From a virus, in IMG/VR virus record IMGVR_UViG_3300008266_000135, positions 1-40,328 of that record: a DNA stretch of 40,328 nt. One strand, given 5' to 3'. The notes under the pieces were generated by a model, which had not been told where the DNA came from, did no database searches, and saw nothing but the letters and a program-made list of their open reading frames with translations. Below, one piece after another: positions 1,552 through 26,510 of the stretch. Numbering within the stretch: the stretch's first letter is position 1; every line of letters starts with the position of its first letter. The position numbers and the translations under genes were made by a program.

Positions 1552-4500
1552 TTTTTCTCCAATGTTTCAATGCGTGATTTAAGGTCTGTAATGATGGCTT
1601 GTTGTTCTTGAATTGCCTTGATGAGCATTGGTACAAATACAGAATATTTAACTTGTTTTGTAGTTGTCCCAAGGTCGTTACCATCTCTGTCAAAATCAGG
1701 ACTTTCATCAATCATGCTTGGGAAAATCTGTTCAAGTTCTTGGGCAATAACACCAAGTTGCTTTTGTTCTTCGCCAATTAAGTTGTAATTAACAACACGA
1801 ACTTGATTTAATTTTTCTAGCTTTGGTGTGGCATCAACAATATTTTCTTTAAGTTTAATGTCAGAAATAGCACCATAACTGTTATTTTGATTAACCACAT
1901 TGCCGTTGGTATAAATAACTATTCTAGTTGCTGTAGCTGAAGATGAATATCCATCAAAAAATCTACCTACTGTATCGCTACTATTACATGATGCTGCAAT
2001 AGCATGACCAGTTGCACTTAATTGTATAAATTCTCCAGCATAATTTGATGCTGTGTTTTGAGTTACGCTAAATTGTCTTGTGGTTGGTGTTTGATTTATA
2101 CCAACTCTACCAGAGCTATCTATTCTCATGCGTTCTGTATCATTGGTTCTAAAAGCAACTGGATGATTTGTACGAGTTCCTACATAACCTATTCCACTAG
2201 CTCCCATCATTTCAAGAGTTGTTGAACCAGAGCTTGATATTGCTTGAATAACACCATAATCTGAACCTTGGATTGCCAACATTTTGAAGGCGCTACCAAA
2301 GTTAGTTGGACTACTTGTACCAATACCTACATTACCAGAGCTATCAATACGCATACGCTCATTACCACCAGTACCTAGTAGTAAGTTACCGCTTAATTGA
2401 CCTATGTTTCCAGTATTAGTTCCATCGCTAAATTGAATACTTGCATCTCTACCAGCAGCACCAGACCTGAATGTTGAGATTGCATTACCAAAAGCAGATG
2501 TGCTTGTTCCAGTAGTAACGACATGAAGCGGTAAGAGTGGACTAGAAGTACCAATACCTAATTTACCACTAGCATCTAGTGTCATTGCCTGTGTAAAGGT
2601 AATAGCGTTTCCTGCTGTGCCTGATGGTGCTGTGTACCATTGATGCTGACCGCTAATCATGCCGTAAGCACTAGCAAAAGAACTAGTTAAATATAGGCTA
2701 TTTGTTCCGTTGTTGTATGTATTTCTGCCAAAAATAACATCACCAGCCGAAGAAACATAAGTAGAACCAACAGCACCAACTTGCAAAGCCTTGAATGAAC
2801 CACCCCAAGCACTAGGAGTAACTCCCAAGCCAAGGTTGCCTGATGAGTCTAGACGCATTCTTTCTGTTGGACTAGCTGCTCCATCTGCTGTAGTACTAAA
2901 TACTAAGCGACCTGGCATATCGTTAGCACCAGGAGTGCCGTCTACAAATGTTGCTATACTAGCCGCTTCTATAAGTCCAGTGCCATCTGCACCCAAAAAC
3001 TGTACACTTCCTAGTCTATCTCCTGAAGCAACGATTGTATTAGAACCTAAAACTGTTCCTTTGGAAGCCCCTAAAACAATACTGCCACCATTTGTTGCTG
3101 TAGTGGTGGAATTTCTAATAGCAGATATTCTTGATTCGTCACCAGTTAAGCCTTCTACTTGGAATTCTGATGAAGCTGAACCAAATAAATTAGTTCTCGC
3201 ACTAGTGGTATTTAATAGCAATCTACCACTAGCATCTAGTGTCATTGCCTGTGTAAAGCTAATAGTGTTTCCAGCTGTGCCTGATGGTGCGTTGTACCAT
3301 TTGTGAATACCTAAATCTACCGCATAAGCTGCTGCCAACCCTGTTCTAGAATAAATAGCATTTGAAGCACCTAAATAAGCATTTTGATAAAGATTAATAC
3401 TTGCAGAACCATAACTAAATACAGAGCCAGCATTAAACTCTAAAGCTCTTACTGAATTAGTTGTCTGCCAAGCACTAGGAGTAACACCAAGACCTAGGTT
3501 GCCTGATGTATCCAATCTCATTTTCTCTGAGTTGTTTACTACAAAGCCTATAGGTGCATTGCTGTAATTACCTAGATAACCAATGCCAGACTGAGGTGAC
3601 ATACCCATCTGCACAGAGTTAGCTTGCACAGAAAGCAAATAGTTAGGACTAGTTGTTCCAATACCTACACTACCAGCAACATAAGCATCACCAGCTTGAA
3701 CATATAAACCCCAGTTTCTTACTGTTGCACCTGATACAGAGCTATATAATCCATAATTAGCACCAGTTGTTACACCTGTACAAGAAGCAACAATAGCAGT
3801 AGCACCATCTGTTGTAGATGTCTGTGATACTTGAAACTTATTTGTTGCTGCTGGACTAGAAGTGCCTACACCTACATTACCAGCACTAGTGATACGCATA
3901 CGCTCTGTATCAGCAGTTAGCCATCTTTGATAACCAGACTCTATAAGGTTATAACTAACATCACTTCCAACCATATATACTTGCAAACCATCGCCAGTAG
4001 TATCTCCAGTTGTACTATTTCTTAAAGTTAGTCTCGGGAAATCGCTTGCATAAATAGCTAATCCAAAACCATTAGTACCAGCAGCAATGCCTGTATTTAA
4101 ACCAATATTTCCTACAACATGAAGTCTTTGTGCTGGACTAGCAGTACCTAAACCGACTGTGTTATTAGTAGCATCAATAACAAAAGTATTGCTATCAAAG
4201 TTCAATCCATTAGGAATAGATACTGCACTAGAGTTGATTGTTAAAGCATCTCCACTAGCATCTCCTAGTGTTGCACCGCCATTGGCTGAGAAAGCTCCTG
4301 ATGCTGATAGTGTAGTGAAAGCACCAGTAGAAGCTGTACTCGCACCAATAGTTGTACCATTGATTGATCCACCAGTAATCGTCACATTGGCTAAGGCATC
4401 TTGCTCAATAGCGTTATTTAGCTCATCTCTAGTGATTTTCTTTAGGGAGCTAGTTGATACGTCATAAACTAGGAATAAATCGCCTGAAGCAGTGCCTACA

Positions 4501-25484: not shown

Positions 25485-25820
25485 CTATTTTAACTCCACT
25501 ACGACATAACCACCAATCTCATTTGCACGATCTATGGTGATTTTAGAGAATTGTTTGTCATTGATTTCTAGCGCATCACACATACCATCTATTCCTGATT
25601 TCATACTGGAAAGCATGTTGTCTAAATCCATGTGCCTGTTGTTTGGCTTATAAAAGGTTAAATGAAGCTCTGTGTAGTCTCGTTTAGTGCTATTCATTGC
25701 ACTCTGTGTTAATTTTGCACACTCTGCCCTGTAAATGGCCTTTGCTTTAGCCTTCTGCATGTAGTGGCCTGTCCAGTTTGGTTTAAGTTCTTTGAGAAAC
25801 CAAGGGAATATAACTTTCAT
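25485..25820 (-). CDS. rusA: RusA-type Holliday junction resolvase
   Basis: 111 residues. The RusA signature is present: D65-x-D67-N68 followed by K74 and D78 (DLDNMLSSMKSGIDGMCDAL), the acidic metal-binding residues that cut four-way junctions. The N-terminus PNWTGHYMQKAKAKAIYR is the usual basic strand-helix of the family. It should act on recombination and replication intermediates, alongside ERF, SSB and NinB encoded from 28876 onward. It overlaps the upstream gene by four bases (25817..25820). Confidence 0.92.
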   Translation of the reverse strand: MKVIFPWFLKELKPNWTGHYMQKAKAKAIYRAECAKLTQSAMNSTKRDYTELHLTFYKPNNRHMDLDNMLSSMKSGIDGMCDALEINDKQFSKITIDRANEIGGYVVVELK

Positions 25821-26011
25821 TTCATCTCATCTAGTATCGGCTTGTCTAAGCAGTCTAACATGTGTTGCAATGTTTCCCTAAGTTCTTCTATATCTTCACC
25901 TGTGATTGGCAAAGGATCTGTATGTGCCAAGACTTTACCATCCTCATAGAACACTTCGCATATACCTAAGTATTCATCTTCTGTTCTTACTATTCTATGA
26001 TTCCAGTGCAT
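25817..26011 (-). CDS. Small conserved phage protein, unknown function
   Basis: 64 residues. It begins MHWNHRIVRTEDEYLGICEVFYEDGKVLAHTDPLP, a beta-hairpin-rich pattern that I have seen in many small phage proteins placed before RusA genes, and ends in a helix (EELRETLQHMLDCLDKP). The start is preceded by AAGGTGATC. Translationally coupled to rusA by an ATGA overlap, so it may be its partner or regulator; that is inference only. Confidence 0.75.
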   Translation of the reverse strand: MHWNHRIVRTEDEYLGICEVFYEDGKVLAHTDPLPITGEDIEELRETLQHMLDCLDKPILDEMK

Positions 26012-26041
26012 TTGATCACCTTACTTGATATTTTGTTGAAC

Positions 26042-26173
26042 TTAAAGCGGTAATAAGAGACGATAGGGGTGAAACCCACTATCTAGTCCATTAGTAATAA
26101 TACTAACTAACTCTCGCATAACGACCAAATTCTTCTTCCAGGCGCTGAATAAGTCAGCCAACTTCCATTTCAC
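26042..26173 (-). CDS. Possible 43-residue protein with GTG start
   Basis: A minus-strand frame from GTG (26173..26171) to TAA (26044..26042) encodes 43 residues beginning (M)KWKLADLFSAWKKNLVVMRE. It has AGG about ten bases upstream, a helical amphipathic start and a plausible composition, and it lies upstream of the rusA cassette on the same strand. It also lies inside a region full of hairpins, so the frame may be accidental. An alternative is an untranslated leader. Low to moderate confidence. Confidence 0.35.
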   Translation of the reverse strand: MKWKLADLFSAWKKNLVVMRELVSIITNGLDSGFHPYRLLLPL

Positions 26174-26408
26174 CCACTACTGCCTGTTCGTGTGAGTCGC
26201 TTTGGTAACGCTCACTGCGCTGTCTCTTATATAGCGCAATCCTATTCTTCCACGCAGCTAGATCAAGCTCTTACTAACGGATGGAGTCCGACTGAAGCGG
26301 AAATAAAAAAGCCACTTAACTCTGCTATTTCTACGGATAACATAATGTAAATCAACCCTATAAACTTACATTATGCGAAATAACAGAACTAAATGGCTCG
26401 CTAGGGTT
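26059..26408. ncRNA. Candidate structured RNA or DNA element: chain of hairpins with possible pseudoknot
   Basis: Successive stems: GAC-GATAG-GGGT / ACCC-CTATC-GTC (26059..26088); GGC-TGA / TCA-GCC (26141..26159); GTGAG-CG / CGCTCAC (26192..26215); TGCGCT / AGCGCA (26216..26238); CGGA / TCCG (26278..26290). Then a long imperfect stem-loop, 26310..26398, pairs AGCCA, TCTG, TATTTC and CATAATGTAA with TTACATTATG, GAAATA, CAGA and TGGCT. Its 15-base loop holds AACCCTA (26354..26360), complementary to TAGGGTT (26402..26408) just outside, so a pseudoknot is possible. On the minus strand the long hairpin is followed by six U, like a large terminator. Strand and function are open. Confidence 0.5.
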
Positions 26409-26416
26409 TAATACAC

Positions 26417-26432
26417 CTGATACCGCTATCAG
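26417..26432. promoter_or_regulatory. Palindrome CTGATACCGCTATCAG, operator candidate
   Basis: Six-base perfect arms CTGATA and TATCAG around CCGC, 78 bases before the GNAT gene, in the control region between divergent operons. Size and symmetry suit a dimeric HTH repressor such as the Cro-like protein at 35197..35424. No second copy was seen. Confidence 0.4.
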
Positions 26433-26510
26433 TACATAAAATATAGCACAAAATAAACTAATTTCAAATATTTCTTTCAATTGTCATAAAAGTCGTACAA
26501 AATCAAGGGT

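Follow-up and report, generated by a model that had tools for sequence, protein, structure and literature searches.

A candidate two-module leader RNA with covarying pseudoknots beside replication genes of uncultured phages

The CI RNA of phage P4 and the c4 RNA of phages P1 and P7 are immunity RNAs, in which a self-complementary leader before the replication or early operon is able to target the nascent transcript to which it belongs. The 6S leader of phage lambda (pR'-tR') has a strong promoter with a terminator close behind it, and readthrough, which involves protein Q, leads into the operon of the late genes. Prophage Gifsy-1 uses IsrK, a short RNA that ends at a terminator and also exists as a readthrough form (PMC4825925). 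The put RNA of HK022 acts in cis after the early promoter and enables RNA polymerase to pass terminators (PMC9378689). Self-recognition of the ColE1 RNAs RNAI and RNAII is set by kissing loops (PMC9458437), and intermolecular kissing loops are formed by the GOLLD and ROOL RNAs, which are located near tRNAs (PMC12286853).

Here, a structured element on a 40.3-kb contig of an uncultured tailed phage (the whole stretch of DNA that was analyzed, referred to as the window) is compared with these systems. No description of the element was found in the open-licence literature on structured phage RNAs and analogous systems. When the window was scanned with Rfam 15, no family came near its gathering threshold and only weak matches to microRNA models were obtained. 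In the homologues, no Rfam 15 family, including GOLLD, ROOL, c4, RNAI and the riboswitches, matched the element at relevant scores. The D1D4 domain of group II introns (RF01998) was identified in 0 of 9 element-bearing contigs, and no reverse transcriptase (PF00078) indicative of a retron was found in the window, which is possibly an incomplete contig; controls were positive in both searches.

Gene context and predicted minus-strand transcript

The terminase, portal, head and tail genes of the window are located on the minus strand, and the plus-strand genes from ∼29 kb onward encode SSB, a ParB-like protein, a helicase, a methyltransferase, Erf and an exonuclease. Neither tRNA or tmRNA genes nor a tyrosine integrase were found in the window. 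A gap of 499 bases (26012-26510) contains no annotated or PHROG-matching genes, in agreement with the original prediction of an intergenic stretch at this position. The ORFs flanking the gap lie on opposite strands, with acetyltransferase-like and phosphoesterase genes on the plus-strand side and a 64-aa ORF and a RusA-like resolvase on the minus-strand side. The element is oriented away from the SSB-helicase-Erf operon. As a candidate for a small coding gene, an open frame of 38 codons (26154-26270, minus strand) was considered and rejected, since it lacks a suitable start codon and phage records contain no homologue; the homology in this region is that of the P1 RNA described below. From 5' to 3', the features of the locus are as follows.

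26440-26467, minus strand: sigma70-like promoter, TTGAAA, 16 nt, TATATT, with an extended -10 TG (10/12 matches)
26417-26432, minus strand: 5' hairpin of RNA1, CTGATAGCGGTATCAG, kept in the relative L226 as CTGATAGAGGTATCAG
26402-26408, minus strand: kissing strand 1, AACCCTA in the minus-strand reading
26309-26399, minus strand: long stem-loop of RNA1, 37 pairs with an 8-nt one-sided bulge; compensatory changes in L226
26354-26362, minus strand: apical loop of 9 nt, exactly UAUAGGGUU, which contains kissing strand 2
26301-26310, minus strand: terminator-like T-tract after the stem, TTTTTTATTT; predicted end of RNA1
26240-26296, minus strand: P1 block, a pseudoknot independent of RNA1; covariance-model match and covariation
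26012-26239, minus strand: remaining leader (3' part of RNA2), specific to the window; structure not above chance
25817-26011, minus strand: first ORF downstream of the element, 64 aa, phrog_21321 (unknown function)
25485-25820, minus strand: second ORF downstream of the element, RusA-like Holliday junction resolvase, phrog_34 (E 6e-11)

Judged from the promoter-like site, RNA1 is predicted to start at ∼26433, and it would contain the small hairpin, AACCCUA, the 37-bp stem with its 9-nt loop and the T-tract in this order. The six U that had been noticed 3' of the minus-strand stem correspond to T6 at 26310-26305. The minus-strand RNA from 26433 to 26305 folds with -46.9 kcal/mol, compared to -23.9 ± 3.2 kcal/mol for shuffled sequences; with a z of -7.24, the long imperfect stem of the original prediction, which has 37 minus-strand pairs, greatly exceeds what is expected by chance. 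When read on the plus strand, this stretch reaches only -26.6 kcal/mol (z -4.5), because several G-U pairs of the minus strand become A-C there. Likewise, the stem arms of the family elements contain 86 G-T cells versus 20 A-C cells, which fixes the strand. A plus-strand RNA, the reading that had been favoured initially, was rejected on the basis of the fold energies, and the G-U asymmetry, the promoter and the T-tract also favour the minus strand.

The region that had been delimited, 26059-26408, lies inside the gap but is slightly short, as the element starts at the promoter at ∼26467. The rest of the gap (26055-26300, minus strand) is no more stable than shuffled sequences (z -0.76, with 45/200 shuffles as good). 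Of the at least five local stems that had been proposed, P1 (26296-26240) could be confirmed by homology and covariation, and the others are at chance level in the window. At its 3' end, the leader of the window (26012-26239, minus strand) reaches a ribosome-binding-site-like AAGGTG, followed by the ATG at 26011.

In the homologues, TTGACA/TATAAT-like boxes were mostly found 17-23 nt 5' of the kissing strand, with scores above those of shuffled sequences (mean 8.8 versus 7.3 of 12). The box of the window is located farther away (∼32 nt 5' of the kissing strand) because the 5' hairpin intervenes, and it was missed by the scan for homologue boxes. Most RNA1-bearing elements have a similar T-tract, typically TTTTTTGTTTTC, directly 3' of the stem. 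Fold energy, promoter-like site and T-tract together support the predicted short minus-strand RNA ending in the six U.

Relatives, P1 block and variable 3' domains

When the DNA of the window was searched directly against phage and plasmid records, no match was obtained. Loci were then fetched via the neighbouring phosphoesterase gene, and 1 of 80 (L064) carries the element. Its similarity to the window comprises only 71 bases, around the T-tract and the block downstream of it, and its layout is that of the window, with the long stem, T6 and the P1 block. As the gene relatives of the window phage mostly lack the element, it is either transferred between phages or frequently lost. In L064, a tRNA-Thr gene (L064:6751-6826) is located directly upstream of the promoter of the element.

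Further relatives were identified using patterns from the P1 block and the 3' motif of the relatives, which brought the collection from uncultured phage contigs to ∼100 distinct elements. Among 84,980 species of bacteria and archaea, a strict pattern matched only twice, and both matches are unrelated. Public phage records (50,697) contained only two weak blastn matches, one of them with P1 under an annotated hypothetical protein. In the public phage genome L332 (MW202753.1), P1 was detected at 3121-3180 with 50.7 bits (E 2e-16); it lies under the hypothetical CDS UOF81610.1, which is probably a false gene call over an RNA. In L308 (MW202545.1), positions 4001-4091 are similar to the long stem of RNA1 and also lie under an annotated hypothetical protein; P1 was not matched in the fetched stretch of L308, which possibly has RNA1 without P1.

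P1 is located ∼15 nt downstream of RNA1. In the window it consists of a hairpin CGG/CCG, the loop of which (UCCAU) pairs with GUGGA, and a second hairpin AGCU/AGCU; UAGUAAG and GCGUGGAAG are conserved. The consensus is a 3-bp hairpin, CG[U/G]-ACUCCRY-[A/C]CG, with a loop that pairs with a downstream GYGGA, and this pairing encloses the second small hairpin together with UAGYAAG, which is conserved. The covariance model of P1 (R1) was built from other phages only, leaving out the window, and it matched 26296-26240 on the minus strand with 63.8 bits (E 1.4e-20). With the window left out, 28 sequences show 98.7% paired cells and 48 double changes versus 12.5 in shuffles; for 89 distinct rows these values are 97.3% and 173 versus 55. 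Slid P1 structures, used as a control, fall to 28-58% paired. In 7 P1 elements with enough upstream DNA no T-tract is present, and P1 is therefore independent of RNA1.

Downstream of P1, the leader varies in type and precedes genes on the same strand. Besides that of the window, at least three unrelated-looking 3' domains, each common to several phages, were observed downstream of P1, including type B (L064, L093, L098, L226) and type C (L236, L241, L273). The 3' motif of one subtype was found in at least 120 viral contigs. RNA2 of type A has a long closing hairpin ending in GGGGUAGGGGGGUCUUUGGGUG, with a 3' motif in more than 100 contigs, and its 3' part (e.g., L103:1596-1830) shows an apparent H-type pseudoknot, CGGCU/AGCCG with AUCAUCA/UGAUGAU. 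Inserts of ∼95-170 nt, closed by TTGATGATGG/CCATCATCA and all located in one fixed hairpin, were observed in type A RNA2 of L086, L091, L101, L106, L117, L119, L122, L126, L134, L151, L175, L179, L203 and L225. Several of these inserts show tRNA-like T-arms, and that of L126 was read as tRNA-Ala by ARAGORN with introns allowed; the inserts may represent either a tRNA-like domain or mobile sequences.

A single P1 was present per contig in 24/24 contigs of 34-64 kb. The recurrent neighbours of the element are genes for a Sak-like annealing protein, an SSB-like protein, an exonuclease, a ParB-like protein, a primase, a replication initiator, RuvC and RusA, and similar kinds of genes are present in the window. 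The downstream genes are mostly co-directional with the RNA, and about half of the elements are located at operon divergence points. The large terminase subunit is encoded near the element in only ∼10 of 108 loci. With neighbours that are mainly replication and recombination genes, and a structure that is an RNA of one strand, the suggested packaging signal is not supported.

Covariation of the kissing strands

Taken alone, the complementarity of AACCCTA and TAGGGTT in the window (plus coordinates 26354-26360 and 26402-26408) has an individual p of 0.25 and is not convincing; the case for it comes from the family and from L226. The stem interior was compared with the 45 bases 5' of the stem in the 90 elements that have a measurable stem. 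A strand complementary to the interior sits at a near-fixed place before the stem, and at least 7 perfect Watson-Crick pairs between the kissing strands are present in 72/90 elements versus 9.3% of strands swapped between elements. The RNA1 nearest to that of the window is L226 (70% over 194 bases), in which the 5' hairpin and the stem are kept and AACCCTA/TAGGGTT is replaced by TTCCAGAT/ATCTGGAA, both strands having changed together. The complementarity noted originally is present, and the proposed pseudoknot is backed by these homologues; it survived the check for compensatory changes, one half of the refutation test proposed with it, and such changes occur in the kissing strands and in the stem of relatives. 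Together with the minus-strand fold, the covariation in the family supports the earlier suggestion of a structured phage RNA; the identity of the feature as an RNA and its pairing are well supported.

In some pairs of closely related elements, both kissing strands have changed jointly, with hardly any change elsewhere. L109 has CATCGA/TCGATG and L126 has CACTGA/TCAGTG, which corresponds to 67% identity in the kissing strands versus 98% in the remaining RNA1, and L138 and L193 are 99% identical elsewhere and 67% identical in the kissing strands. In independent pairs with at least 80% identity, the kissing strands show lower conservation than the remaining sequence in 10/12 cases (mean 75% versus 87%), and when all independent pairs are taken this is the case in 14/22 (sign p 0.14). 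The fast change of the kissing strands, which is clear only in close pairs, suggests that there may be selection for new specificities. Two kissing sequences, GTAGGAA and GTGGAAA, are recurrent.

No clear further copies of the kissing sequences were found in flanking DNA (longest match 9 nt), and the kissing strands of RNA1 showed no pairing with RNA2 beyond chance. Therefore, the evident partner is RNA1 itself. As intramolecular pairing alone would account for the covariation, an action in trans is put forward below only as a proposal.

Possible function and comparison with described systems

Sequence comparison establishes the structure, strand, conservation and location of the element as a two-module minus-strand phage RNA, consisting of RNA1 and P1. 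In the best, tentative reading, it would be a self-recognising, self-terminating leader RNA of an early replication operon. Host RNA polymerase would make RNA1 and mostly stop at the T-tract, where an RNA of ∼130 nt would be released, and readthrough past the T-tract would extend the transcript into P1 and the operon. Given that the apical loop is complementary to the 5' strand, released RNA1 could pair with another or a nascent RNA1, presumably only if both are of one type. Pairing of this kind would adjust readthrough, resulting in a copy-dependent feedback on the replication operon, and might also exclude a like phage. Immunity of a lysogen would be a more tentative extension, as the window yielded no tyrosine integrase. 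The presence of a predicted promoter directly before a predicted terminator, ahead of an operon and combined with self-complementary strands that possibly diversify, fits a model in which readthrough is regulated by the product of the RNA itself. More doubtful is the wider proposal of a class of self-recognition RNAs, in which the kissing strands would form a diversifying code and the RNA of one genome copy would recognise the nascent RNA of like genomes and thereby set the expression of the replication operon.

A possible alternative, nearly as likely as the self-recognising leader, is a leader that acts in cis only. RNA1 would then be a folded, terminated leader with an intramolecular pseudoknot, involved in stability, RNase resistance or the timing of termination and not in pairing in trans, and P1 and the rest would be a separate cis element, for example a put-like antiterminator or a leader that controls translation of the operon. 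This makes a trans step unnecessary and is consistent with the position of the element before genes on its own strand and with the few phages that have P1 without RNA1. HK022 put, which acts in cis after the early promoter, is a precedent, and like the element it is a phage RNA located 3' of an early promoter and 5' of an early operon; however, put has only ∼70 nt and two stem-loops and is located upstream of the terminators it acts on (PMC9378689). By itself, an action in cis also leaves unexplained that the kissing strands evolve faster than the remaining sequence in some elements that are otherwise near-identical.

It is improbable that RNA1 and RNA2 form one large ornate RNA like GOLLD or ROOL, with kissing strands that join molecules and a T-tract that is structural or leaky. 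The element is phage-borne, has several pseudoknots, contains in type A a fixed stem whose variable inserts have tRNA-like T-arms, and adjoins a tRNA gene in L064, and GOLLD and ROOL are likewise ornate phage RNAs of unknown function, with intermolecular kissing loops and a location near, or sometimes together with, tRNAs (PMC12286853). However, these are much longer single folds and not terminator-ended RNAs of ∼130 nt, and they gave no Rfam match here. Moreover, the T-tract resembles a normal terminator, and the 3' part differs between types A, B, C and the window, so that they have no single large fold in common.

There is also little probability that the element, in line with the original suggestion of an origin, is an origin-associated RNA or a primer RNA for DNA replication, comparable to ColE1 RNAII. 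Its single copy, its replication neighbourhood and the predicted promoter and structured transcript would agree with such a role, but GC skew near the element tracks gene direction with no clear independent switch, a transcript of only ∼130 nt would be poorly suited as a primer, and the downstream sequence is not conserved across types. Similarly unlikely is RNA1 as an accessory module, a small RNA that acts in trans against the host in defence evasion or control of host mRNAs. Its own predicted promoter and terminator and its sporadic occurrence, as seen for the phosphoesterase loci, point in this direction, but the only conserved complementarity found is to RNA1 itself, the loops are too variable for a common host target, and the element is confined to replication regions. 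An ordinary strong inter-operon terminator with chance complementarity, as might be indicated by a terminator-like stem with a T-tract where two gene sets of opposite strands meet, has a negligible probability and is contradicted by the P1 match at E 1e-20, the covariation of both pseudoknots, the changes in L226 and the upstream promoter boxes.

The element is widespread, has two covarying pseudoknots, is located beside replication genes and has no match in the searched Rfam library, and it may be a route of phage RNA self-control without earlier description. RNA-based copy control or exclusion in phages is known so far from a few systems. Should the kissing strands represent a recognition code, they would allow a direct test of such control or exclusion in phages, and if this code is one of self-recognition, copy control or exclusion of like phages would be achieved without a repressor protein.

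In its logic, the self-recognising leader would resemble the P4 CI RNA, ColE1 RNAI/RNAII and IsrK, and it matches no family tested. The lambda 6S leader also has a promoter closely before a terminator and readthrough to an operon, but it serves late genes together with protein Q and has no conserved pseudoknot. IsrK shares with the element a phage promoter, a terminator-ended short RNA and a readthrough form serving as the mRNA of the operon, and its short form acts in trans (PMC4825925). However, the short form of IsrK pairs with the downstream readthrough transcript, whereas the kissing strands of the element show no excess of pairing with RNA2, and no sequence relation between the two was seen in the Rfam scans. 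In ColE1 RNAI/RNAII, kissing sequences define self-recognition near a replication region, as proposed here; RNAI is an antisense RNA from the opposite strand, whereas both partners of the element are located within one RNA of one strand. The P4 CI and c4 RNAs are, like the element, self-complementary leader RNAs ahead of a replication or early operon; they have a different fold and gave no Rfam match, and the element pairs a 5' strand with the loop of its terminator stem.
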